Assembly: GCF_029227915.1 (NCBI RefSeq)
Contig: NC_079879.1
Span: 6,138,001-6,202,000 of the forward strand
Direction: 5' to 3'
Origin: Hydractinia symbiolongicarpus
Taxonomy: Eukaryota > Cnidaria > Hydrozoa > Anthoathecata > Hydractiniidae
Length of the DNA stretch: 64,000 nt
Shown one piece after another: positions 6,591-62,119 of the stretch. Position numbers and translations under genes: made by a program. The stretch's first letter is position 1; each line of letters opens with the position of its first letter. The notes beneath the pieces are model-generated. The model ran no database searches. It was given only the letters and a program-made list of their open reading frames with translations, and had not been told where the DNA came from.

Positions 6591-6628
6591 AGTTAGATGT
6601 TTATACTTTTAGATCTGAGGAAGTCAAA

Positions 6629-7651
6629 ATGGTGGAGGTAATATCAGAAAGAGACACATGTTCCGTTTTAGTGGACATGCATGACTGGTATCAACGTTAC
6701 ATATTAGCTGGAATCAATATCTTTTTTGCTTTAATAGCAAGCACTGGTAATACAATTATCATACTTTCAGTTCTAAAATCAGGCACACTTCGTTCGCAAG
6801 CACCGACATGTTTTATAATTTCATTGGCGATAGCTGATTTGCTAGTTGGAGCAGTGGTGCAACCATTATACTCTATCATATTAATTGATTGGTCAACTGG
6901 AACGTGCATGATCGAACCTTACAAGTTATATATAGGTTATTTTACGTGTTCCATTTCTATCAGTAGCGCCATGTTTGTTTGTCTCGATCGAATGCTAAAA
7001 ATTTGTTTTCCTTTTAAGTACGTAACATACGTCACAAATAATCGAGCCCTGTTTGCTGTGATTTCCATATGGTTGTGTGGGGTAGGAATTGGTTACATGA
7101 GCGTGTTTTTTGAAGAGAAAAAATTTATCGCCTTTGGAACTTTAGCCTGGATTTTTAACGCTATTTTGGTGGGAATATATTGCTCCGTTAAAATATATAA
7201 AGTCGGATGCCGGCAAATTAAAGAGATTAATCATAACTGTGTGGAAGGCAAGAAAAACATCATGCGCGAACGAAAATTGGCTGCCTCTTTAATATGTGTA
7301 CTAGCTGCCGTGCTTTTTTTCTGGTTTCCATTTGTCATTGTGAACGTATGTGTGTTATTTCTTTATACATCCAAGAACTGGTTTCATTTCTTTGTAGCAA
7401 GAGCATGGACGATAACATTTGGTTACACTAACAGTAGTATGAACATTTTCATTTTTAGTTTTAAAAACAGAGACATTAAAAAAGCTATTAGAAGTTTTTT
7501 ACGTTTAAACAAACGACCAAGGCTGAATCTATCAACGAATACCGTCACATCTAGTTGTGAAAGTCCGAAACATTTAGAAATGAACTCAATAACAAAACGG
7601 ACTTATGGTAGCACTGGTAAATTGAGCATAAACAGTATTCAGCCTAAATGA
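6629..7651 (+). CDS. Class A (rhodopsin-like) G-protein coupled receptor, single exon
   Basis: 340 residues with seven hydrophobic segments. Diagnostic positions are Asn41 in TM1 (GNTIIIL), Asp70 in TM2 (SLAIADLLVG), Asp120-Arg121-Met122 at the TM3 end (variant DRY), Trp232 and Pro234 in TM6 (FFWFPF) and NSSMN at 268-272 in TM7 (a variant of NPxxY). Cys93 is at the usual TM3 position, but the very short second extracellular loop (about 158-168) has no Cys, and TM5 has no Pro. Short Cys-free loop 2 and Pro-free TM5 recall the melanocortin/EDG/cannabinoid group, and many cnidarian orphan receptors are of this kind. The ligand cannot be named. The C-tail is Ser/Thr-rich. An in-frame TAG about 36 bases upstream of the ATG, with no earlier ATG between, supports the start. 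A TTTTAG just before it may be a 5' UTR splice acceptor. Confidence 0.93.
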   Translation: MVEVISERDTCSVLVDMHDWYQRYILAGINIFFALIASTGNTIIILSVLKSGTLRSQAPTCFIISLAIADLLVGAVVQPLYSIILIDWSTGTCMIEPYKLYIGYFTCSISISSAMFVCLDRMLKICFPFKYVTYVTNNRALFAVISIWLCGVGIGYMSVFFEEKKFIAFGTLAWIFNAILVGIYCSVKIYKVGCRQIKEINHNCVEGKKNIMRERKLAASLICVLAAVLFFWFPFVIVNVCVLFLYTSKNWFHFFVARAWTITFGYTNSSMNIFIFSFKNRDIKKAIRSFLRLNKRPRLNLSTNTVTSSCESPKHLEMNSITKRTYGSTGKLSINSIQPK

Positions 7652-7669: not shown

Positions 7670-8078
7670 ATGAAATATTGGCATATGGATATTAAATATA
7701 TATTGGCACTATATTGCATGTCATTTTAGAATTTAAAAAGAATAATTTCAGCCCGAAAGCAGCACAGATTATGGAATATTTTGTATTATAAATTAAAATT
7801 GGTTAAATTGTCTCTAACAGTTTTTTTATTGTGGCGAGCTGATAACAATATAAATAAGAATGCTTGGAAACGAGAGTATTTTTTTTCCATACAAAAAAGT
7901 GAATTTAGTCACATTCATTTGACAACATAAAAACACTAAAAATTTAATGTGAAAATGCAAACAATCTGATGTTGAAGATTCAACTCTCCTTATCTATTTG
8001 CCAATTTTAGCTCAAGATATGCCAGTAAAATGAAAATTTTTGGAGTTTATGTTAAAAACAAAACGTTTTGACAGATCC

Positions 8079-8163
8079 GTACGAACCATTCTCGTACCCA
8101 GAGCTCTTTGAGATTAAAACCTCACTTTTCTTAAAGAGCTCTGGGGTCGAGAATGGTTCGTAC
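8079..8163. repeat. Foldback (hairpin) repeat
   Basis: Arms of 31 bases: the left starts GTACGAACCATTCTCG and the right ends CGAGAATGGTTCGTAC, matching with two mismatches and including AAAGAGCTCT. They enclose a loop of about 23 bases. It resembles a minimal foldback MITE. No clear target duplication was seen. Confidence 0.75.
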
Positions 8164-8574
8164 GTACATAAGTTAAAAACTTCTAGAAATATATTTAGCA
8201 ATGTGGATTAGAATCAAATATTATTCTACATTTAAATTATTTTTTGAATGAAGAATTCACAAACGCAAAACGCCATAAAAGTTTGCAACGGGATTCGCCC
8301 CAAATAATTTAGTGTATAAAAAATGTTGAAAAAGTCTGCTTAAGAATAAACTTATGCATCCAGTTAAAAAATTTCGATTTGTAAAAAATTTTCAGTCGCA
8401 CTACTCGCACTAAGCATGTCTTCACATTGCTATCTGTCCCAGATAGATATATCTACAATCTTGGTGAAAATATGTTGAGACAAGACACCCTATTTCGAAG
8501 TTTGCCACCACAAGTAATTGCGTAGGCTATTTCTATATTAGATTCACACATTTTGAACTTGTCAAACATAGGAT

Positions 8575-20200: not shown

Positions 20201-22952
20201 GAAAGAAAATATTTGCATCGCCAATTTAAATACACGTCAAGTTTAAGTCAAAATGGTCATAGCCAAATTAAATGCACGCCAAATTGGTACGAATAAGGCA
20301 ACTTGGAAAAAATAACTGTTTCCCATTTTATTTCACTACTGAATATAAAAAAACTGTTCGTTATGTTACTTACGACAAACCACCTTCACAAATACTTATC
20401 GCTGCCCTTGAGTTCGTCTCCAATAGTCGACCATGGTAATGACATTTTTTTAATATCGGCTAAGAAGGTTAATTGATATAAAATGGAACAGTAAAGTATT
20501 TAAACGTTCACATAGTAACAAAAAATATAAAGAAATTACCTTTTCGACTTTGTTTTTACCGTTGCGAGTTTGGTATGTTAAGGTAAAGTCTGGATGAACA
20601 AGACGCCTAAAATGCAAAAAGATATTGTATGATTACGGTAGTTCCATTGTCTGTACAACTCATAATGGCGGAATCACCACTAAAAACAAAAAGAACGAAA
20701 AATGACAACCGAACCAAATATGTTTGAACAGAAACATTATTAGATATTGTTTATTATTATTCAACATAAAAACAAATGAACTGTCAAGTGAGAATGATTT
20801 AACCTGTTAAGCTGTAAAAACAAATGGTATTTCTTTAACTTCGTGTGTAAAATGAATTCCAGATCCTCACCATTAACATGTTTCTGTGAACACAAATTAT
20901 TACATCATAAGTTAGAACAAATTTTTTGGCGTAACAACAAAATCAATAAAATGTTCATTGACGAAGAGTTTTCTGCTGATTGTACAGTTTGAAATTCTTA
21001 GTATAGTTTTTTAAACACAGGTTTTGTTTATACGATTTTCCAGAAGTATATCTTAAAAGGATTACAAATAGCTATAGATTTTGAAATAAAAAAAGCGACG
21101 AAATTGATTACAATTTATGATAAACTACATGCATCAGTTGTCTTAAATTTAAATGGTTAATGAATATTTCAGAACTTGAAAAAATTTGAAAAGGGATTTT
21201 GAAGCCTCTGGTCCAACTGAAACTGTCATTATTAGATATAGCGATGTCCTTAGTAAACATTTTGTTTGTAAGTATTTTTTTGAAAGAGTGAGTCTTTTGT
21301 TATTCTTTATAAATTTAGTAAAACAGTATCAGCTATTGAAATAATGGTTTGATTCCTTTCTTTTATTCCTCAGCGATTGACATCGACTGAAAAGTAACAT
21401 AGTAGGGGCGACAATGAACATAAATTCAAAGATACCTGGACTGCTCTTCTCCAGCGATGATGTTTTCCGCTTTTACTGACAACAATTGGTTCCACAATGT
21501 CGTAGGCGCGTAGATCTGATAACGCAGGGTATTCTAAAACGGGTATTATTTTGAATCATGTGATTACCCAAAACACAAACAATGAATGTTAATGCATAAA
21601 ATGTGAATGTATCCTATGTTAGTACTGCGCAACCTGTATAAAGTGTGAACGTACCCTAAGTTAGTACCGCGTGACTTACATAAAGTGTGAACGTATCCTA
21701 AGTTAGTACCGCGTGGCTTACATAAAGTGTGATCATATCCTATATTAGTACTGCGCGACCTATATAAAGTGTCAACTTATCCTATGTTAGTACTGCGCGA
21801 CCTAAATAAAGTGCGAGCGTAATGTCAAAACAGAAGGAGACATATTAGAAGGAAAAGATTCTTATATTTAAATAAGTTGTGACCACGACATAAAAGTCAT
21901 TGCTTATAATACAAAAGGATACATTTGAAAAAAATTATAAAAATTACTATATATATATATAAATGTTATAATTAAAAGCTCCTTGAACATCTAACATTTA
22001 AAAAGTACGTTTGTCCTGCATGGGAAATATGTGTAAAGATCATGTACATTGTTATGTCCAGTGCTGACATCATCATAATGGAAATACAAATATTTCCTGA
22101 AATGTATGTAAGCGAGTGCGATATTATGCATGGTTGATCTACAAAAATGGATTATGATATTGAGGATGACTATTTGTAATCCCTTTTCTGTATTGATGGT
22201 ATTAATAAATAATGTTAAGTCACTTGAAGAATACTATTCCAGCCAGTAATTTTAAGAACTCTATGTGGCCGGGAAAGGCGAGGGGAGGGGGTTAAACGTA
22301 CGATCCCCCCAAACACCCCCATTTCCGAAAGTAACAAAGTAGACATAGTATCGTCTCGTCTTTGTTATTGGTGGAAACTTAGGAGAGAAAAAATCTGGGT
22401 GACGTCATTTAGTCTAAGATGACGTCACCCGACCATTACCAAACCCGAAAAAAAATAGCGTGGTAGGTGGGGATTTTCCTTTGGCCCCGACCGAATAGGG
22501 TTTAATTTAAGGATGCAAAAAAAACAGTCACATAATGTGAGTTTTGAATCTTCAACTTTTGTAAGAAGCTAAATTGTTCAAGAATACCATTTCCTGAATT
22601 TTTTGTCGGTTGAATAACCTGCTATATAAATATTGTGTTTTTTTCTACTTTCGCATTTTATAGGTTTGAGTTAGTGAGTGTAAAATTGTCTATCCAATTT
22701 GCCATTTCTTTTTGTTTTCTCAGACCATTTAGTTGCACTAAAGGCTTCAGTTGAAGATGTCAAACATTAATTAATAATAAATCTTTTCAAAAAATTCTGA
22801 ATATGTGTATGGCGTTAGATCCACAATTATTCTCTACTAAAAAATTCAACTTAAAACTATTTAAATTCGTTATAAAAAATCAAACCTGCAATGGTGCAAT
22901 GGGCAAAGATGAACAAAACATATATCATAAACGGCTGCTTGATTTTTTCCAT
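10051..22952 (-). CDS. ADAM-family transmembrane metalloprotease-disintegrin, 27 exons, complete
   Basis: Exons (5' to 3', minus strand): 22886-22952, 21436-21533, 20804-20883, 20540-20606, 20374-20459, 19838-19889, 19694-19754, 19542-19594, 19032-19112, 18813-18881, 18433-18608, 17265-17346, 16992-17067, 16802-16853, 16260-16359, 16057-16128, 15745-15834, 15539-15619, 14897-14953 (tentative), 14401-14467, 14139-14247, 13600-13722, 13332-13410, 13068-13151, 12224-12506, 11882-12005, 10051-11245. All splice phases agree; the model gives about 1187 aa. Domains: signal peptide 1-22; prodomain to a furin-type R-F-R-R site (188-191); reprolysin domain with HDNAQLLT, HELGHNLGFIH (zinc His338, 342, 348; Glu339) and a CVMN Met-turn; disintegrin from about 403 (VCGNGFLEEGEYCDCG, ECDLEEYC); Cys-rich to about 650; EGF (CNNNGNCHCKPGY); Thr-rich stalk; TM about 751-774; 413-aa cytoplasmic tail. 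ADAMs shed ectodomains of membrane proteins and bind integrins. A meltrin-like (ADAM9/12/19) type is likely but unproven. No Cys is seen at the usual cysteine-switch position. Confidence 0.93.
12224..12506 (-). other. ADAM exon 25: EGF-like module and threonine-repeat stalk
   Basis: The exon opens with the ADAM EGF signature (CNNNGNCHCKPGY then GNGGSADSG). A run of 18 Thr, KM and further Thr blocks follow, encoded by mixed ACA/ACG/ACT codons. A mucin-like O-glycosylated stalk just outside the membrane is the natural reading. The repeat may vary in length between alleles. Confidence 0.9.
13868..14019. repeat. 10-bp tandem repeat (CAAGTTGAAA)n in an ADAM intron
   Basis: About 15 copies of ACAAGTTGAA with few variants (AGGTGAAGC, AGTTGAAGC). 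Intronic to the ADAM gene, between exons 21 and 22. Confidence 0.9.
14685..14737. repeat. Short tandem repeat of about 22 bp in an ADAM intron
   Basis: Two to three imperfect copies of TATAAATGGAGGGC separated by similar spacers. Confidence 0.6.
16992..17067 (-). other. ADAM exon 13: zinc-binding active site
   Basis: This exon encodes HELGHNLGFIHN, the HExxHxxGxxH zinc motif of reprolysins. All three His and the catalytic Glu are present, so the enzyme is predicted active. The residue after the third His is Asn where the family usually has Asp. The next exon (16802-16853) supplies CVMN, the Met-turn. Confidence 0.95.
21598..21830. repeat. 42-bp minisatellite in ADAM intron 1
   Basis: About 5.5 copies of AAAGTGTGAACGTATCCTA followed by AGTTAGTACCGCGTGACTTA. 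Copies alternate between CCGCGTG and CTGCGCG variants, suggesting two sub-families of unit. Confidence 0.85.
22397..22430. promoter_or_regulatory. Palindrome holding two cAMP-response elements (CRE) in ADAM intron 1
   Basis: Near-perfect dyad: GGGTGACGTCAT at the left and ATGACGTCACCC at the right around a 10-base centre. Each arm contains the full CREB/ATF octamer TGACGTCA (22400-22407 and 22420-22427). It lies about 520 bases downstream of the first coding exon. Single TGACGTCA sites also occur near 11798, 12927, 16777 and 62336. Function is inferred from the motif only. Confidence 0.4.
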
Positions 22953-43544: not shown

Positions 43545-44225
43545 TAAAGGAGATACGAAAACGACTGTAGATTTTCGGCTTTAGTAACTTAGACGAAAAT
43601 CAAGCTAAAAATTATGATCACTAAGGACAATAACAACAACTTAAATCATTTTAAATATTATATATTCTAAATGACAGAAACGTTATCAACATATATCGGA
43701 TATCAATGATTAATTCGATTTAAGTTTAAACTCAAACTTTCTAATAAAATAAACTTCAAACCTTTTCAACTAGCTAGCTAGCTATAATCTTCGAAATATT
43801 GCAGAGAAAGATATAAGTTTATTGTACATAAAGATAATCGAAGCAACAACAATGACTTAAAAATCTTTTTAGATGTATTAATTACCTTTTTAAAGCTAAT
43901 AACATAGCATTTTTAACAAATACAGCTCCTCGTTTTTATCAAAACAAACTTTTGATTTACTGATATTTAATATATTTTACAAACCGTAGGTTATTTTACT
44001 GCCGAAAAGATTACTGCAGGAAAAGTTTTCTTTCTTTAAAAAATAATAAAAAAGTAGCAAATTTATCATAAAAGTTTTAATTATTCATAAATACGTTGTC
44101 TAGACGACTTTGTTGTTCTGAAGTGTGTATAATTTCTTTCACCTTGACCTTTTGAGTGGTCCATTTATTACACGACATTCTTCGTAAATTGCGTGATTGG
44201 TTTCGTAACCCCTTTAAAAAGAATC
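43545..44225 (+). repeat. Dispersed repeat family B, intact copy
   Basis: Matches 56393-56790 (left half) and 59547-59740 (right half) in the same orientation. Shared blocks include CTAAATCATTTTAAAT, AATAAACTTCAAAC-type, AGCAACAACAATGA, AAAAAAGTAGCAAATT and AGTGGTCCATTTATTA-type stretches. It is contiguous here, so this is the reference copy. Confidence 0.65.
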
Positions 44226-45240: not shown

Positions 45241-45707
45241 ATATCCCCCGCAGAGCGTAAGGCATTTGCTAAGAAAACATGCAGTGCGAAGAGAATTATT
45301 CACTTTTTCCCTTGTATTTTCACTTTTTAAACTGGTTCGATATATTGATTTTACAATTATTTAAAGGAAGGATACTCAGTATTGACATAAGAATGTATAT
45401 TATGAAAGTTCAAGACCTAAACTTGGTTATTAATTTAATTGCTTCAAGTTGTGGGGTACACTCATCATGAAAAGTTGGCAGTCAAAAGAGAAAGAAACCT
45501 TATTTTGATAGTTAGTTACATCACAAGTTATAATATTGTCTTAAAAATATCACAGTGCTGATCAAAGAGGGATTGCTAGCATGTCATTCAAGATTTATAT
45601 AGCTACTAGTACAGCCAAAATAATGTAGCTCATTAAACACAAGTAAAGAAAGCAATGTTTTTTTTTCTAAACTAATAGTTTCATGCCCATTAAAAAGATC
45701 CTAGCTA

Positions 45708-45911
45708 CAATCCCGGTCAAAATATATTGGCAGTAAGCTACAAAAAGTGCAGTATAATCCTTTCTTACCCCCTCTCCCCCATTATCAATGTTTGGAAACG
45801 CGTTAGCACAACTTTTGAACATTGATACTGGGGGAAAGGGGGCTTTGTACTTATCAAGCTCTTGCTACACATGAAAAAAGGGTTTACTGCCATTATTTTT
45901 GACCGGGATTG
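45708..45911. repeat. 204-bp foldback repeat, left copy
   Basis: Starts CAATCCCGGTCAAAATATAT and ends ATTTTTGACCGGGATTG. Outer arms of about 30 bases pair with few mismatches. An inner pair (CCCCCTCTCCCCCATTATCA against TGATACTGGGGGAAAGGGGG) also pairs, so the unit can fold back along most of its length around a central ACGCGTT-containing loop. Confidence 0.9.
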
Positions 45912-46184
45912 TCTGAATTTCAAGAAAAAAATTTGACAAGAGTTGTGGCCTTTTTCTTCATAGAGAAAGTCAAAAAGGCCTCTGTAACTAGAATTTACAC
46001 GTGGACTTGACCCTAGTTTCTATGAGACTACTATTCTGTAACGAATCCAGTGAAATGATAAGCAAAATTAGGCGCCAAAATTCGAAGAAAACGAAAGTGA
46101 AATTAAATGATATTCAACACAAGAAATAAGCTCTCATCCTAGCCTAAAATAACGTATAAAATAAAGTATAAAACCTAATATAGA

Positions 46185-47545
46185 ATGGCAAACAATATAA
46201 ATAGCGATGAGGAGCTTGAGAACAAAGACAGTTGCAGAACGTATATGTTAACGTACTCCAAAGCAGATCTAAGTGTTGTTCCAAATCAAAAGGCGTTCAC
46301 TGACATCGTATTAGAGGCATTTTCCACAGGGACGCCTAAGGCTAATGTCGAACACTGGGCTACTTGTACAGAGGTTCATGCAGATGGTGAGCATCAACAC
46401 TACCACATGGCATTGAAACTGAGTGGAACCCGTCGTTGGCGCCCCATTCATCAGCACCTTTACAAGACACGTAAGATTTCTGTGAATTCTCATCCAAAAA
46501 CTATGGGTACTTGGCTGCATACCGTTATGGTTGCAAAGATAAACCGTTTGAGTCAGTTTTGCACAGGAAAAATCACCCAAACTTAAAGAATGCCAAATCA
46601 CCAGTGTCAAAGCGGGGTTTCACTCGTTTTTCCCAAAATTCAAAGAAACGCCGGGAGGTCCAGTACAAAAACCGGAAGCTTCAGCTAAACGACGCTTATC
46701 TAATAGTGATGTTGCCAAGTTTCTTGTTGAAAACGACATATAAAATGACACTCAGCTCATGTCAGTGGCAAATCGGAGACAAGCTGAGAATCAGCCAGAC
46801 TTATTCAATATTATCTTAAATAAGTCTTCAAAGGCACTCTCAGAACTCATTTCGGTAACTTGGAAAATGCACAGTGCCCCTAAAGCGATCGAGCGACAGC
46901 GAAAATGTAGACTTGACGTTGTGGTAGAAAAATCAAACACAGCCTGCGTAGACGGATGCAACGGCACTTGGTTGGTGTGTGCAAGGCAAGTGTTAAGAAA
47001 CAATAGCATCAATATATACGTTTTTGCTGATGCTCTGCGAGAATGTCTGAAGCGTGGTCGCAAGAAAAATAACAATATCCTGTTAACAGGACCAACAAGT
47101 TGTGGAAAATCATTCTTGTTGAACCCTGTAGAACTAATTTTCAATTGTTTTATTAATCCTGCAAGCAGCAAGTACGCATGGGTTGGCCTCGATGAATGTG
47201 AACTCGCCTACCTTAATGATTTTAGGTGGTCAGCGGAATTAATCGCATGGAACGAATTTCTCCTGCTGTTGAAAGGTCAGACTGTTCACCTGCCAAGGCC
47301 TAAAAACCAGTTTGCCACTGACATGGTTATAGGCAGGGACAATTCCATGCCAATTTTGGCTACAAGCAAAGGTTCAATTAAACATGTTGAAAAATATAGC
47401 CAGAGGCCAACGCGAAACAGATATGATGAGTTCAAGGTGGCGAGAATTTAAATTCATTGAAGAAATCCCAAAGGAATCGATGAAACACTTAGAACCTTGT
47501 CCGCACTGTTTTTGTACCCTGGTTATCCAAGGCGTGGATGCGTAA
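46185..47545 (+). pseudogene. Rep-like gene: HUH endonuclease plus superfamily 3 helicase (broken)
   Basis: The first segment (46185 to about 46505) carries an MLTYS block and the metal-binding H-x-H of HUH nucleases (HYHMALKL, about 46398-46421). The next frame holds a YRYGCKDK block fitting the nuclease Tyr/Lys motif. The longest segment (46759-47451) has a Walker A (GPTSCGKS, about 47088-47111), a Walker B-like GLDECE (about 47184-47201) and an ILATSKGSI block like SF3 motif C. A CPHC-type finger follows in another frame (about 47500). This HUH plus SF3 order is that of rolling-circle or rolling-hairpin replication initiators (parvovirus, CRESS-DNA virus and related integrated elements). 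The frame is broken near 46505, 46650 and 47430, and there is an in-frame stop at about 46740, so it is most likely a relic. Small introns cannot be fully excluded. Confidence 0.78.
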
Positions 47546-47596
47546 AATGTATAATATATAAAAACTATGTTCGTATTTAAAAGTTATTATATTCCA

Positions 47597-47805
47597 TGCG
47601 TCACAAGTGCGTCACATATGCGTCACAAGATATATAGTAATATTCTGTAAAAGAATTTAATGCGTCACATGCGTCACATCCAAAGTTTTAAAAGAATAGT
47701 ATATATATCTTTAAAAAAAAATGTTGTGACGCATGTGACGCATACATTTAACAGTTAAACACATGCAAAAAACCGAGTGACGCATTAGTGACGCACTGTG
47801 ACGCA
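47597..47805. repeat. Mirror-symmetric array of ten TGCGTCAC/GTGACGCA octamers
   Basis: TGCGTCAC starts at 47597, 47608, 47619, 47661 and 47670. The complement GTGACGCA starts at 47726, 47735, 47777, 47788 and 47798. The steps are 11, 11, 42, 9 on the left and 9, 42, 11, 10 on the right: a dyad centred near 47701 with an AT-rich middle. It lies exactly between the convergent Rep-like and transposase genes. Such iterons commonly bind Rep proteins at origins; here that is inference. Confidence 0.93.
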
Positions 47806-47835
47806 TAGAATTTACAGCTAAATATCTTTAAAAAC

Positions 47836-48951
47836 TTAATATTTTGTTCTGGCACCTTTGTGCTTTTGCACAAGTGCCAACCTTTTTGGCATTGATGATA
47901 TCAGGTTGTCAATAGTTTGTTTTGGAATACCTGTCAACATGGTTTGCTTGATTCTGTTCACAAACTGTTCATATGTTTCTGCTGTGATGTTCTGTTTCAT
48001 TGCGTCTTCTTTTAATTTTGTCCTAACCAGGTGGAAAAAATTTTCTATTGGGTTTAGATCCGGGGAGCGTGCCGGTATTTTGACCATGACATAACCTTTG
48101 CGCTCCAAGGCCACCCTCGCTGCTTTTGAATTTTGTTCAGGACATCCATCCTGAAGAAACTTGTACGGTAGCGCAGACTCGCTCTTCGCGAAGGCAGTGG
48201 GGAATTGTTCATCAACAACATACCTGGCAAAATTGTCGCCAGTGATTTTCCAGTCATGATGGTGACACATGACAACCCCATTACCAAAACTAATCGCAAC
48301 GAAAAAATTTGCCATCTTACCCCCACTGCCTTCTTTTCGTCCTTTTGTTGTGATAGAAAGACCTTCGTTGGGCCTACGCCAGGTCATACTTGATACTGTT
48401 CTCGCCTCTCCAGCCGGGTTGGGCTTAAATGCAAATCCAATCCCATCCAAATAAAACCCAATCTCCTTAGTCCAGTACTCGGCCGGGAGATTTAACTGTT
48501 GCCTAGCAAACTTCGTGCGAATGAATTTGTCTTTCACGCTCAAAAGTCCTTTTTTCCTTGATTGACAATACTTGTAACCATGTTTCTGCAAACAACGTTG
48601 TATGTCTCTGTTACTTATCTTCCAGCTGAGTCCTGCTGTCTCTTGAACTTTCTTCGAGGAAAACTGTACCCCATTCCGTCGCAATTGTGCCACAGTCCTG
48701 ACAATAATTCGTTCCATACGGATAGACAACTTTCGAGGGCGACCTTGGTTTTCTTTCCGTGGATCGAACAGGGCAGCGGCATCCATAGGTTTTTTTGCAT
48801 GCCTGTAAATGGTCCGCTTTGAAAACTGTTTTCCATAACACTTGACAAGCTCATAACAACTCAGACCGTTCTCCTGATGCAATATCCTCAACTTCATGGA
48901 AGTTTGTAGGTCCATTTTTTGATACTTACCCCGACTGTTTTTTGGAGACAT
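47836..48951 (-). CDS. Tc1/mariner-superfamily transposase (DD34E), intact
   Basis: 371 residues, uninterrupted, ATG at 48949-48951. The N-terminal half is a paired-like helix-turn-helix region (MKLRILHQENGLSCYELV and TIYRHAKK), then a GRPRKLS linker and a second HTH. The catalytic core has YLDGIGF (Asp169), FLQDGCPEQN (Asp268) and SPDLNPIENFF (Glu303), with 34 residues between the second Asp and the Glu, hence DD34E. These enzymes cut and paste DNA at TA sites. The intact frame contrasts with the broken Rep-like gene that converges on it. The gene is inside the 4.0-kb element. Whether it moves that element or is itself a passenger is not shown by the sequence. Confidence 0.94.
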   Translation of the reverse strand: MSPKNSRGKYQKMDLQTSMKLRILHQENGLSCYELVKCYGKQFSKRTIYRHAKKPMDAAALFDPRKENQGRPRKLSIRMERIIVRTVAQLRRNGVQFSSKKVQETAGLSWKISNRDIQRCLQKHGYKYCQSRKKGLLSVKDKFIRTKFARQQLNLPAEYWTKEIGFYLDGIGFAFKPNPAGEARTVSSMTWRRPNEGLSITTKGRKEGSGGKMANFFVAISFGNGVVMCHHHDWKITGDNFARYVVDEQFPTAFAKSESALPYKFLQDGCPEQNSKAARVALERKGYVMVKIPARSPDLNPIENFFHLVRTKLKEDAMKQNITAETYEQFVNRIKQTMLTGIPKQTIDNLISSMPKRLALVQKHKGARTKY

Positions 48952-48959
48952 TTTGATTT

Positions 48960-49548
48960 TGCGCTGGTTTTATGTTTATATATATCTTTCTAAAAAGACG
49001 AAAATATACATGTAGTTGTTATCATTGTTTCTGTTGGCAGTTATGTACATGCAAAACAAACATAAACAAGGTCCTTTTTTCAGTTCGATCTTCCCTTACA
49101 GAGCTTAGCACTACCTTATTGGTACTAATTTTCTGAATTTTTGACTCAATATACATGTACCCTTTCATTCTTGAAAAGGTATATATATATTTTTTGCGCG
49201 TAGTACTTTTCACCCAAAACATTTTGCGCGTTGCTTCTGTACTAAATTTTTTTTCGCACAACTGCGTCAAAATTAATACCCACAAAAATTAGTAACAATA
49301 ACGTATTTACAATTTTTCACGGAATATTATAATGTCTCGCGATTATCGAAAAATGCCCCATTCGCCTCGTCATCTATTGTTTTAGCATTTCTATTGTTTC
49401 CAATTTTAGCATGGCACAAAAGAAACAATGCTGGTACATACTTCAAAACATATATATAGTATCCACCTTTAGAATTAATTTAAAAATTAAGTCAAAAAAA
49501 TTACTGCAAAAAATTGCCGAAAAAATTTTAAGTCTAAAATTTCAGAGA
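48960..49548. other. Upstream region of the transposase, inside the composite element
   Basis: Non-coding. It contains the likely transposase promoter and a few TGCG/GCGC motifs (near 49195-49270). No second terminal repeat flanking the transposase alone was found here. Confidence 0.45.
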
Positions 49549-49752
49549 CAATCCCGGTCAAAATATATTGGCAGTAAGCTACAAAAAGTGCAGTATAATC
49601 CTTTCTTACCCCCTCTCCCCCATTACCAATGTTTGGAAACGCGTTAGCACAACTTTTGAACATTGATACTGGGGGAAAGGGGGCTTTGTACTTATCAAGC
49701 TCTTGCTACACATGAAAAAAGGGTTTACTGCCATTATTTTTGACCGGGATTG
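49549..49752. repeat. 204-bp foldback repeat, right copy
   Basis: Same unit as 45708-45911, same orientation and same length. The one difference I see is ATTACCAATG for ATTATCAATG. Near identity implies recent duplication, gene conversion or one common insertion event. Confidence 0.9.
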
Positions 49753-50517
49753 TAGCTATATTATTAAAAAACAATTCCAAAATTTCTTATTTTGTATTTG
49801 TTAGGAAACTTTATTTAACTAACCAGGGCGAAGCTACCTACATTTTTTATAAACCAAATTAAAATTGTCAAAAAGCTGGCTATATCTGTCTCGTTGTAGT
49901 TTTTGTTAGCTAGGGGTCACACTTGGTCACTCAAATATGTCGTAGCCTTAGTCATACAGTAATCAGATATATAGGTGGGCAAGTGCCCAGATGCTAAAAA
50001 TAGGATCATAAAAACTCATTTCTAATATCACTCAACTTAACAGTGCAGTTCAAACACCAACTTAGCCTTAAAAATTGCTACGCCTCAATTTTGCATTGGA
50101 ATAATTTAATGGAAAGTAACTTTTTAAACAAATTTAGTGACTTTAACTCTTTTCGTCGAATATTTTCGGTTGCCAAATTTTTCTTATGTCAATGTACCAA
50201 AATTACTATAGCTATCACAAAATTCTAAAAATGGACCTTGCCTAAATTTATTCTTGCGTTTTACCATAATTAAGAACACAGTAATACAGTGTAACATGCT
50301 ATTATATATATCTCTTCCTAGCTAGTTATGTAATATTTATATACAATAATTTCTAACGAAAAGTTAAAGGCAGTCATTATATCATTGAAGTGTGTATTTT
50401 ATTTTCAGTCGATTTCATCTGTGCTCTTTTTTATATAACTAGTTAGCTATACTTTGCAAATAAATCCTTTATTAAATGCTCTTCCACGTTCATCCATGTC
50501 AAACTTGCAGATCCATA

Positions 50518-50552
50518 TATAGCTAGCTAGCTAGCTAGCTAGCTAGCTATAG
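50518..50552. repeat. (TAGC)n microsatellite
   Basis: About eight AGCT/TAGC units. Related short AGCTAGCT tracts occur near 43770 and 58670-58810. The motif is common in the flanks of the composite element. Confidence 0.85.
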
Positions 50553-55905: not shown

Positions 55906-56392
55906 GTATGTTAATGAAAACTTGGAGATTAAAATAATAACCGTTGTATCATACGGCTAACAGGAGATAGTCACCCGCTTCAGGTATTGCAACAGATTAC
56001 TAAAAAAACTAGTTTAAATCTGAATGTTACGCTAAAATAAATGGAATGGAACATATTATATCGGAGAAAGTAAACGAATTATGCGAAATTAATGACTTTT
56101 AATTAATGACTCCAAATTAAAAATCACTTTAGAATTGAAAAATGCATCTATATTATAATGTCCGTATACGTCTGTCCGGACGTCAGTCTGTCACGCAAAA
56201 TGGTAGCTTAGCTGCAACGGGCGAACCTGTGGATTTCTCCACGGGCTAACCACTAGTGTTTAGAAAATGGCTATGCTTTAAATTAGCCTATAGACAGACA
56301 TGAAGATGAAAAGAAGAAATTAGAATGATGATTTTGGTGCAGTACAGGCGTAAAGTAAAGGCAAAAAGCGTCCCCTTTAGACGAATAAGGGG

Positions 56393-56790
56393 CTACGAAA
56401 CGGCTGTTGGTTTTTGACTTTAGTGACTTACACAAAACTTGAGCCAATGGCAGTGAAACAGTTTATGAACACTGGCGACAAAAACAACATCCTAAATCAT
56501 TTTAAATGTATTATTAAGTTTCCAGATATAACTGAAAAAGACAAAATAGCTCCCTACATATTTTGGATACTCATGATTTATTCGATATATGCTTTTAACC
56601 CAAGTTTTCCAATAAAAAAAAACTTCAAACTGGTTAAAGTTTTTTACACATAAAGCAACAACAATGATTTTGAAATCTTGTTACAGGTATCAATTACCTA
56701 CTTTAAGCTAGTAAGATAACATTTTTTAACAAACACTCCTCCTGTTGTCAGAAAACAAACCTTCCATTAACTACTATTTAATACACTAGT
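56393..56790 (+). repeat. Dispersed repeat family B, left half, interrupted
   Basis: Matches the left part of 43545-44225. The match stops at about 56790 (after TTTAATAC) and resumes at 59547 (ATTTTACAGACCGAG), so 2.76 kb has been inserted. Confidence 0.65.
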
Positions 56791-57009: not shown

Positions 57010-58130
57010 CGCCGGGTTAAGCCACAAGTAACTGTTGTTGAACGCCTTGAGGAGCGATTAATAAGAACCGCAAACTGTGCGACCCGGTGAGGTGGAGCGC
57101 TTTAGTACGGGTATGCAGTATGTCGTAAATCAAGTGGAGGGCACACACCATTGCAGTGTTGCGACTGTAAGATATTTAAAAAAAAATAATTTCCCGCAAC
57201 AAAAGCTGAATTAAAACAGTTTACAAACCGTTGTTACTCCGCCATAGCAAAAACAATCGGGCAATATTATTTTATTTTGCGGAATAAGTTTCTGTAAAAG
57301 TTCAAAACTTAATCATGACAGTGGGCCAAGAACGCATAATACCCTTTTCATAAAAAACTTTACTGCAATTTCAGTGTAACTTAAAACACAGGAAAAATCC
57401 AGTCGTTACCCCATAAAAAAACTAAAAAAACTGCATAATTGGAGTGCTCTAGTACAGGTATGCAGAATATGTCGTGAATTGAGTAAAGCTCACACAACAT
57501 TATAGTGTTTCGGTTGTAATGTACTTTTTAAAATATATGTATATATATATAACTTTACTGCAACTTTAACTGAAATAAAAACACAGTTTACAACCTGTTG
57601 TTACCCCGTCATAAGAAAAGAAAATAGTCAATATTATTTTATTAATATTGACTATTTTAACCTTAACAAATTAATCATGACACCGGACTGAGCACTTAGT
57701 ACAGGTAAATGGTGTCACACATGCGTTATAACCATAATAGCCTTTTCCCCCAAAAACTTATCGCAACTTCAATTTAAATAAAAAACACACAAAACACCCT
57801 GTTGTTAACACCAGGTTGAATGTTTATTGCAGGTAAAAAAACTTTATCACAACGGATTAAATAAAAACACGGAAAAAGCCCGTCATTAACACCAGGCTGA
57901 GCACTTAACATGTAAATTGTGTCATACATGAGTAACAGGCGTAATAAAATTTTCCAAATAAAATTTATCACAACGGTTTAAATAAAAACACAGAAAACAG
58001 CCAGTCGTTAACACCAGGCTGAGCGCTTAACAGGTGAATCGTGTCATACATGAGCATAGGGGTAATACCATTTTCCAAAAATCCAAATCGTTTCGGTTTT
58101 AAAAGAAATCAGTGAACAGCCTGGCATTAA
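57010..58130. repeat. Degenerate tandem repeats of about 85-200 bp
   Basis: Repeated blocks AATAAAAACACAG-AAA, GTTAACACCAGGCTGAGC, TGTGTCATACATGAG and TTATCACAACGG. Two adjacent units near 57859 and 57980 are 121 bases apart. Confidence 0.65.
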
Positions 58131-59740: not shown

Positions 59741-60587
59741 ATAAAAAATGCGAAATGTATATCAATCAAACCAATCGAGAGCACAAACGCATCAGTACCA
59801 CCGTGGGAAATCACTCTAACAATAGGTCACGGCAACATTTTAAATTCATACATTAACAAATAAGATATTATAATTATTCTTAGTGTTTATAGTAATTTAA
59901 GAAATGGTTTTAGCATACTGATTTTATTAGTTTTTTGCTTTCAATTTACTGTGGTGTGCAGGTATGTGCGGATAAACTTTTAAATATATGTTGCTTGTTT
60001 TTAACGATTTTAACTTAATTATATTTCGACCTGCCGCTAATTTAGGTATTTTTTGGCATTAATTCCCACATTTTTTTTACTAATTTAAAAAACTTCAATA
60101 AACGTAGAATTGTTCGACGTTATTTTTCTACGCACGCCATTTCTCAATTAATGGTTGGTTCTCAGGAGCCAATTGTCCTTGCGTATTATTTTAGACAAAA
60201 GTGTCGATTTTATATAATTGGAACGAGGATCAAAATATTTATAAATATGTGTTTTGTCACCAAACATAATATAAGCAAAAACAAAGCAACCTGAATTGAG
60301 CATAAAAAATTCGTCATATGGGAGGCAGTCAATTGTGTTTTTTCGGCCGTTAAATTTTGCGGTATTGCACTTTTACTTTCAGCCAGCGCGAAATACCAAT
60401 GTTCGCCAAAAAAATTTTTTTTTGGTTTGTCAGATGTAAAAAGAACATTTTAGATAATGCAATCTATCTAATTTTTTTATAGCTTTGTCCAAAATGTAAT
60501 TCAATAAAGTCATTCCCTTTTAGTTTCTACCAGCTTAATAAAAAAGAAGTAATTTAATAAATCTCCTTTCTTTCTTCAGGTAAGAAG
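59741..60587. other. Upstream region of the Kv channel gene
   Basis: No gene. The bases just before the start codon, CTTTCTTCAG then GTAAGAAG, look like a 3' splice site, so a 5' UTR exon and the promoter probably lie further left and were not located. Confidence 0.45.
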
Positions 60588-62119
60588 ATGTCAGAGGAAA
60601 AGGAATCCTTAGTGAACGGACGATCATCAAGTAAATATTATGGTATGGAAGAAAATAAAATAGACGAGCTTGTCTATTTTAATGTCAGTGGAAGATCATT
60701 TGCAACCACCATTCAAACTTTGGAATTTTTTCCTAATTCATTGCTAGGATGCAAACAAGAAAGGGATCAACTGCCACGTACAAAATGTGGAGAGATATTT
60801 CTAAATCGACATGCAGCAGTTTTTGAGAGTATTCTAACTTTTTACCAATCAGGTGTCTTTGAAGCTCCAACCAATGTAAATCAGAACATATTTGTAAGCG
60901 ATGTTATTTATTACGGACTGCAGCAGGAAGCAGTTGAATCTGGTCTCAAAGGTTTTGATATTGACGAAGTGCCTTTTCCGGAAAATAAAATACAGTGCTA
61001 CTTATGGATTTTATTGGAATATCCAGATTCATCGTTGTTGGCTCGTGTTGTGTCAATGTTTTCGTTAACCACAATTATCATATCAATTATAATATTTTGT
61101 TGGGAAACTTTACCAGCTTACAAAAAACCAGTGAGCCAATTATCAGCTTCGAAACAATTAACTGTGAAAGCTTTAAACGACATTGAAATATTTTGCATTG
61201 CGTATTTCTCTATTGAGTTTATCGTCCGATTGGTATGTTCGCCCAGCAAAGGTGCGTTCATCAAAGATGTGCTTAATCTCATTGATTTTGTTTCGATACT
61301 ACCGTTCTACATAACGCTTATTTTTAACATGGAAGGAAACGTATCGATATACTTTTTGCGTGCTGTTCGTCTAGTGCGTGTTTTCCGTGTATTCAAGTTA
61401 TCGAGGCATTCGAGTGAAATGAAGATTTTGGGGATAGCTGTAAAAGACAGTGCTAGAGAATTGGGAGTGTTACTTTTCTTTATATTACTTGGTGTGTTAT
61501 TATTTTCAAGTGCTGTGTATTATGCGGAAGGAGGAATGAGCAAATCTCCACTGCAGAGTATTCCTGGTGCGTTTTGGTGGAGTATTGTTACTATGACAAC
61601 AGTGGGATATGGAGACGAAGTACCACATTCGACAGGTAAAAATTCTAGAATAGGTAGAATAGGCAAAAAAAAATTCATTTAATAATTGCTTAAAATTATT
61701 TAGTTTTGAATTTAATTAATTTTATCGCTTTAGCTGGCAGATTAATTGGAGCCGTCTGTGCCATGACTGGAATCCTTGTCATTGCGATGCCTATTCCAAT
61801 CATCGTAAACAATTTTACCCGTCAGTACCAAAGACTTAAACCAGTGTCAAGATTTTGGTTAGAATTTCAGGAAAGGGAAAAGCAACAACCAGCCAGGAAA
61901 CAGGTGCTGGGTTTATTTAATTTATGCGATCTTAACGAGAATGACTTACTAATATCGTCCAATCCCTGTTGTGGAACTCTTTTAATGAGAAGATCCCATG
62001 ACGATGAGCAGAAGGAAACTGATGATAGTACAGAAAAACTAAACCTGGAAGAAAAAGTAATTGTTATTCATGAAATACCACAAATAAATAGCAGTAGAGA
62101 TATTGAAACGCATATGTAA
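60588..62119 (+). CDS. Shaker-type (Kv1-like) voltage-gated potassium channel, two exons
   Basis: Exons 60588-61635 and 61734-62119 (ACAG|GTAAAA ... TTTAG|CT, phase 1) give 477 aa. Order: short N-terminus; T1 tetramerisation domain (about 28-120, VYFNVSGRSF, FYQSGV); S1 (155-173, IIIFCWETLP as in Kv1); S2; S3 (LIDFVSILPFYITL); S4 voltage sensor with Arg258, 261, 264, 267, Lys270 and Arg273 at every third position; S5; filter TVGYGD (338-343); S6 with a PIPIIVNNF hinge. The channel carries outward K+ current as a tetramer in the plasma membrane. LLEYPDSS-ARVV and the S1 sequence favour Shaker over Shaw, Shab or Shal. The hinge is P-I-P where most Shaker channels have P-V-P. No inactivation ball is obvious in the 27-residue N-terminus. 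The intron falls just after the filter. Confidence 0.96.

Follow-up and report, generated by a model that had tools for sequence, protein, structure and literature searches.

What kind of mobile element carries both a replication gene and a transposase gene between palindromic repeats? The question is raised by a roughly 4-kb element (positions 45708-49752) in a 64-kb stretch of Hydractinia symbiolongicarpus DNA, here called the window. A sequence-only reading of this stretch had proposed that a replication gene (Rep) of the HUH endonuclease-superfamily 3 (SF3) helicase type and a DD34E transposase gene form one 4-kb unit between foldback repeats. Our analysis of the repeats, the protein domains and the catalytic triad upholds this proposal, and roughly a dozen further contigs combine the two genes, as judged by equal contig sizes. 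We consider it moderately probable that the element represents a widespread lineage of DNA transposons with two genes, one of them for a resident replicase, of which it is a single integrated copy.

The element is bounded on the outside by TAGCTA and begins and ends with a 204-bp repeat (Table 1). As the sequence-only reading had described, the two repeats are in direct orientation, nearly identical (203/204 positions, one mismatch) and of the foldback type; folded as DNA, the left repeat gave a z-score of -9.3 and none of 200 shuffles was as good. Each repeat is near-palindromic: besides inverted end motifs of ~16 bp it has a 25-bp inner stem and other stretches that are complementary. The end motif ACAATCCCGGTCAAAA, with up to two mismatches allowed, occurs at four places in the 64 kb (0.05 expected); all are exact and correspond to both ends of both terminal repeats, and the window contains no further copy of the motif or of the element. 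The outermost ends form an inverted pair of 21 bp that is 100% complementary and of which TAGCTA makes up 6 bp. TA adjoins both outer borders and neither inner border, the inner borders beginning with TC and ending with GA. At this locus, then, the repeats do not look like independent miniature inverted-repeat transposable elements (MITEs) with duplications of their own, the finding that the sequence-only reading had named as telling against a single unit.

The likely target duplication at the outer borders is TA, but it could also be TAGCTA. The earlier statement that TAGCTA sits only at the outer borders holds for the element itself, both borders having it with none between them, but not for the window, in which there are 41 sites versus 14.0 expected (~3-fold). 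Because of this excess the TAGCTA borders are weak evidence alone, and the six-base match may be a mere TA target within TAGC-rich DNA; a TAGC microsatellite lies at 50520-50549.

The open reading frame (ORF) of the transposase is intact and contains the Pfam domains HTH_Tnp_Tc3_2 (PF01498; 35.5 bits, cut-off 31.5) and DDE_3 (PF13358; 31.0 bits, cut-off 28.6). Its triad consists of D175, D274 and E309 (stop-to-stop numbering), of which the second and third are separated by 34 residues, and the DD34E triad is common to 110 of 111 relatives of at least 330 amino acids (aa). The transposase gene (-) converges with the Rep gene (+), so that the two face each other as had been proposed. Among ORFs of at least 150 aa, the present copy has those of Rep and the transposase only, and no capsid gene.

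The Rep gene, at about 46185-47545 (+), is broken, its matches to relatives falling successively in frames +3, +2, +1 and +2. The pieces were searched separately, with no repair of the reading frame. Piece 1 alone had no Pfam match, while piece 3 matched PPV_E1_C with an E value of 8.6e-6 and 25.5 bits, slightly below the 26.5 cut-off. The combination of HUH nuclease and SF3 helicase was established on intact relatives, the window copy being broken, and the catalytic residues are conserved across the Rep family. When the Rep sequence profile was compared with solved structures, a single match was obtained, to papillomavirus E1 (E 0.005). At the level of structure, the helicase is, among solved structures, most like adeno-associated virus (AAV) Rep68/Rep40 and B19 NS1, and the nuclease domain matches geminivirus-type Reps. 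Among predicted viral structures parvovirus non-structural (NS) proteins came out on top, and some CRESS-type Reps and papillomavirus E1 matched too. The two best Rep matches, P0001 and P0002, are likewise apparently partial or frame-shifted. Three Rep sequences had no match in PHROGs at E <= 0.01, and no relatives of the element were found in viral and prokaryote contig collections.

Between the two gene ends lies a 239-bp palindrome, which the sequence-only reading had overlooked. It is an array of TGCGTCAC sites grouped 3-2 / 2-3 about an A+T-rich centre, with 9 to 11 bp spacing inside the groups, and it folds with a z-score of -11.8 (0/200 shuffles as good). The array holds 10 of the 11 exact TGCGTCAC sites of the window, where 0.85 would be expected, and the terminal repeats contain none at up to one mismatch. 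In its form the array resembles the iterons of a replication origin, for which it is a candidate.

Table 1 Features of the element (window positions)
Feature	Position	Strand	Evidence
Left outer border TAGCTA; last two bases, TA, likely target duplication	45702..45707		sequence
Left 204-bp terminal repeat (like a long terminal direct repeat), foldback, inverted ends CAATCCCGGTCAAAA...TTTTGACCGGGATTG	45708..45911	+	repeat identity, fold, end motif
Rep piece 1, HUH endonuclease domain, motif HYH, single frame	46179..46586	+	41, 58, 82% identity to P0180, P0200, P0002 over matching part
Rep piece 2, nuclease motif 3 (Y-x-x-K) region, different frame	46475..46819	+	46, 70, 82% identity to P0180, P0200, P0002
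Rep piece 3, SF3 helicase domain, Walker A (GPTSCGKS), 235 aa	46744..47451	+	PPV_E1_C match; 59 homologues
Rep piece 4, C-terminal end, different frame	47402..47545	+	54, 65% identity to P0180, P0200
Palindromic iteron array, TGCGTCAC x5 (+) then x5 (-), candidate replication origin	47588..47826		motif count, fold
DD34E Tc1/mariner-type transposase ORF, intact, stop to stop, 377 aa; first Met 48951	47836..48969	-	Pfam domains, triad
Right 204-bp terminal repeat, orientation as left	49549..49752	+	repeat identity, end motif
Right outer border TAGCTA; first two bases, TA, likely target duplication	49753..49758		sequence

The recurrence of the gene pair was examined among the best 120 of 720 Rep matches, obtained with an alignment as query, and the best 120 of 990 transposase matches. 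Fourteen distinct exact contig sizes are common to the Rep and transposase matches listed; as a control for chance, one list was offset in both directions by between 1 and 60 bases, which gave a mean of 2.0 coincidences (range 0-5). Fifteen matches fall at the 14 shared sizes. The 2004-bp match (P0267 with P0065) was excluded for its differing sources (lgn and ena), and P0005 for being a second Rep match at size 28679. In the 13 pairs used, the source tags are compatible throughout and identical in 11. Eleven of these pairs occupy contigs of 3.9 to 5.5 kb, close to the length of the element and including sizes of 3906, 4487 and 5330 bp; the remaining two belong to contigs of 16.5 and 28.7 kb. 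All 13 combine a full-length-looking Rep (454-504 aa) with a full-length-looking transposase (357-386 aa). Identities among the pairs and the window copy, whose Rep was represented by the 235-aa helicase piece only, are 42 to 68% for Rep and 43 to 67% for the transposase. That both genes stayed full-length despite such divergence suggests selection on both. The Rep and transposase distances correlate (Mantel r 0.63; 4/20000 permutations as high) and the two trees have 3/11 splits in common, a level reached by 6/2000 permutations. Because of this correlation and these common splits, and because one contig changed partners (see below), the two genes seem to have been associated for a long time, though not without exchange. 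The Rep matches P0181 and P0005, one of them partial, are 100% identical over 233 aa and both have contig size 28679, apparently that of one contig; they may come from a multimer of a related element, and two insertions side by side or a faulty assembly would fit as well.

How might two such enzymes work together? Judging by its family and by the TA flanks, the DD34E Tc1/mariner-type transposase would excise the unit and insert it at TA. Each terminal repeat resembles a small transposon in having an end at either side, and a Tc1-type transposase can move the whole by using the two outermost ends. The HUH-SF3 Rep would nick the excised one-repeat circle, with the internal palindromic iteron array as the probable site, unwind it and replicate it into head-to-tail concatemers. 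Any stretch of such a concatemer consisting of a repeat, the interior and a repeat would have two proper transposase ends and could be inserted, so that both repeats of an inserted unit would be copies of one original. The direct orientation and near identity of the repeats and the joint retention of the two enzymes are what this concatemer model yields. Since Rep is broken and the transposase intact in the present copy, its last move may have needed Rep supplied by another copy, or may have been plain cut-and-paste. The single difference between the repeats suggests that the insertion was recent, and the Rep lesions suggest that Rep was already broken ahead of this last jump. If, as assumed here, each substitution is accompanied by 0.045 stops and 0.15 indels, at least four lesions, as in Rep, have a probability of 0.004 at the observed repeat divergence; the order of events is only suggested because this chance rises to 0.49 at the upper 95% bound.

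Several points weigh against this model. The Rep of this copy changes frame at least three times and is interrupted by one stop between two pieces, and because it is broken Rep is currently dispensable in cis. The structural model of Rep is moderate (mean pLDDT 76.6, pTM 0.48), its nuclease having folded only within the larger model. The repeats, the iterons and the gene order are known from the present copy alone, and the excision, the circle, its replication, the concatemer and the origin function are steps that we infer. Linkage in the relatives is deduced from equal contig sizes, with about two coincidences expected by chance, so that one or two of the 13 pairs may be fortuitous. The Rep and transposase trees differ in 8/11 splits, mostly weakly supported. 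One conflict is strong: contig 5525 stands beside 4608 in the Rep tree (support 100) and beside 4582 in the transposase tree (support 96), a clear change of partner, so that at least one such change took place. Shared host history may account for part of the distance correlation, and gene conversion could likewise keep the repeats alike.

Some of these observations would also be expected of an ordinary Tc1/mariner transposon in which Rep is a mere passenger, captured from a single-stranded DNA (ssDNA) virus and without a role in mobility. A broken Rep beside an intact transposase fits such a passenger, as do the partial or frame-shifted appearance of P0001 and P0002 and the partner change of contig 5525. 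However, the full-length-looking genes in 13 diverged pairs and the conserved catalytic residues of Rep suggest selection on both genes, and a passenger explains neither why the ends are direct repeats nor why there is an iteron palindrome; we regard this account as unlikely, while giving it more weight than the two that follow.

The ends themselves could be read as parvovirus-like hairpin telomeres resolved by Rep, with the transposase merely integrating the element and opposite flip states mimicking direct repeats. Rolling-hairpin replication of this kind, which the sequence-only reading had brought to mind, agrees with the palindromic ends, with the likeness of the helicase to AAV Rep68/Rep40 and B19 NS1 and with the lead of parvovirus NS proteins among predicted viral structures; flip-flop as in parvoviruses can produce the direct orientation. 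It is not borne out by other features, as the ends lie at TA and bear the transposon end motif, the candidate Rep sites, TGCGTCAC, lie inside the element and are missing from its ends, the nuclease domain finds its match in geminivirus-type Reps, which act on circles, and Rep is broken in this copy. A rolling hairpin is possible but rather improbable, and is less favoured than the circle and concatemer. It is very improbable that the unit is a chance composite in which two 204-bp MITE copies happen to flank both genes. The inverted ends on each repeat are indeed MITE-like, and repeats of a similar kind in KolobokP elements are apparently mobile alone (PMC9587614), but TA is present at the outer borders only, no other motif or element copy lies in the 64 kb, and the surroundings of the transposase gene yielded no further pair of end-like sequences.

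Returning to the two-gene lineage, the sequence-only reading had known of no described element with this layout. Among the papers listed in searches that left aside Repbase reports and most subscription papers, none has a title or abstract opening describing an element that combines a Tc1/mariner transposase with Rep, but the repeat layout is known in KolobokP and the coupling of Rep and transposase in a truffle element. KolobokP has an internal part (INT) between long terminal direct repeats of ~450 or 660 bp that have their own short inverted ends of 11-18 bp, and encodes a Kolobok transposase, of a TTAA-targeting superfamily, together with a His-Me homing nuclease (Kojima and Bao 2022, PMC9587614). 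Multimers and solo repeats, the latter with 3-5 bp duplications, are reported there, and the molecular pathway is unknown according to its authors (PMC9587614). The present element is like KolobokP in its repeat-INT-repeat order, in the inverted ends of its repeats and in enclosing a DDE transposase and a second DNA-cutting enzyme; it is unlike KolobokP in its Tc1/mariner-type transposase, TA flanks, HUH-SF3 replicase and shorter, near-palindromic repeats. TTAA is absent from its borders, with TA instead, and no Pfam match to a His-Me homing endonuclease was obtained in the five ORFs scanned. The geminivirus-like transposon of Tuber melanosporum has a Rep-like gene and transposase ORFs, whose class is not stated in the section on it, 37-bp inverted ends and no obvious target duplication (Liu et al. 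2011, PMC3198968). It thus also joins a Rep-like gene and a transposase in a single repeated element, and differs in its geminivirus-like Rep and its 37-bp inverted ends; direct terminal repeats are not described in that section (PMC3198968). The same section lists Hydra DENSOV_HM (Repbase 2008) as parvovirus-NS-like repeats and there mentions no transposase partner (PMC3198968); its Rep family is possibly the same as, or a near relative of, that of the element. Rotifer terminons, giant retroelements, are reported to carry Rep proteins (PMC6431247), and Teratorn to be a 180-kb merger of piggyBac with a herpesvirus (PMC10175614). Like the present element, both are transposable elements that acquired replication genes from other replicons; neither is a 4-kb Tc1-type unit.

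The element has the domains, triad, TA flanks and inverted outer ends of Tc1/mariner (DD34E) transposons, and is unlike them in its additional replicase gene and its direct palindromic terminal repeats. Its ends resemble Tc1/Bari ends. With parvovirus or rolling-hairpin replicons it has the HUH and SF3 combination in common, as seen in intact relatives, and no capsid ORF of at least 150 aa is present in this copy. Helitrons have a HUH Rep joined to a superfamily 1 (SF1; Pif1-like) helicase, unlike the SF3-type helicase here. The layout is thus of a known kind in a fresh combination, with a real chance of being its own class. Such a class of eukaryotic elements would obligatorily combine HUH-SF3 amplification of a one-repeat circle from an iteron origin with DDE insertion, its direct repeats being made by replication as long terminal repeats (LTRs) are made by reverse transcription; we put this forward tentatively, as a proposal somewhat less likely than not to be true.

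Cut-and-paste transposons are generally regarded as multiplying through host replication and repair alone. If our reading is true, a lineage that keeps a replicase beside its transposase would be a DNA transposon able to amplify itself and would tie transposons concretely to ssDNA or parvo-like viruses, and direct terminal repeats would have a replication-based origin. The model predicts one-repeat circles, which for this copy would measure 3841 bp, the spacing of its repeats, as well as tandem multimers and repeat identity within copies.

Elsewhere in the window, a rhodopsin-type G protein-coupled receptor gene (6593-7651) and a BTB/ion-channel gene (60561-61682) fit an animal genome; no tRNA and no Rfam match at the gathering score was found in the window. 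A dispersed repeat pair of ~400 bp (43547-43972 and 56387-56783) aligns in two pieces that are 69 and 79% identical, and tandem arrays with units of ~53, 42 and 121 bp lie at 1891-2284, 21595-21821 and 57835-58081, respectively. The 87 bp at 8078-8164 are ~81% identical to their own reverse complement and are perhaps a small foldback element.
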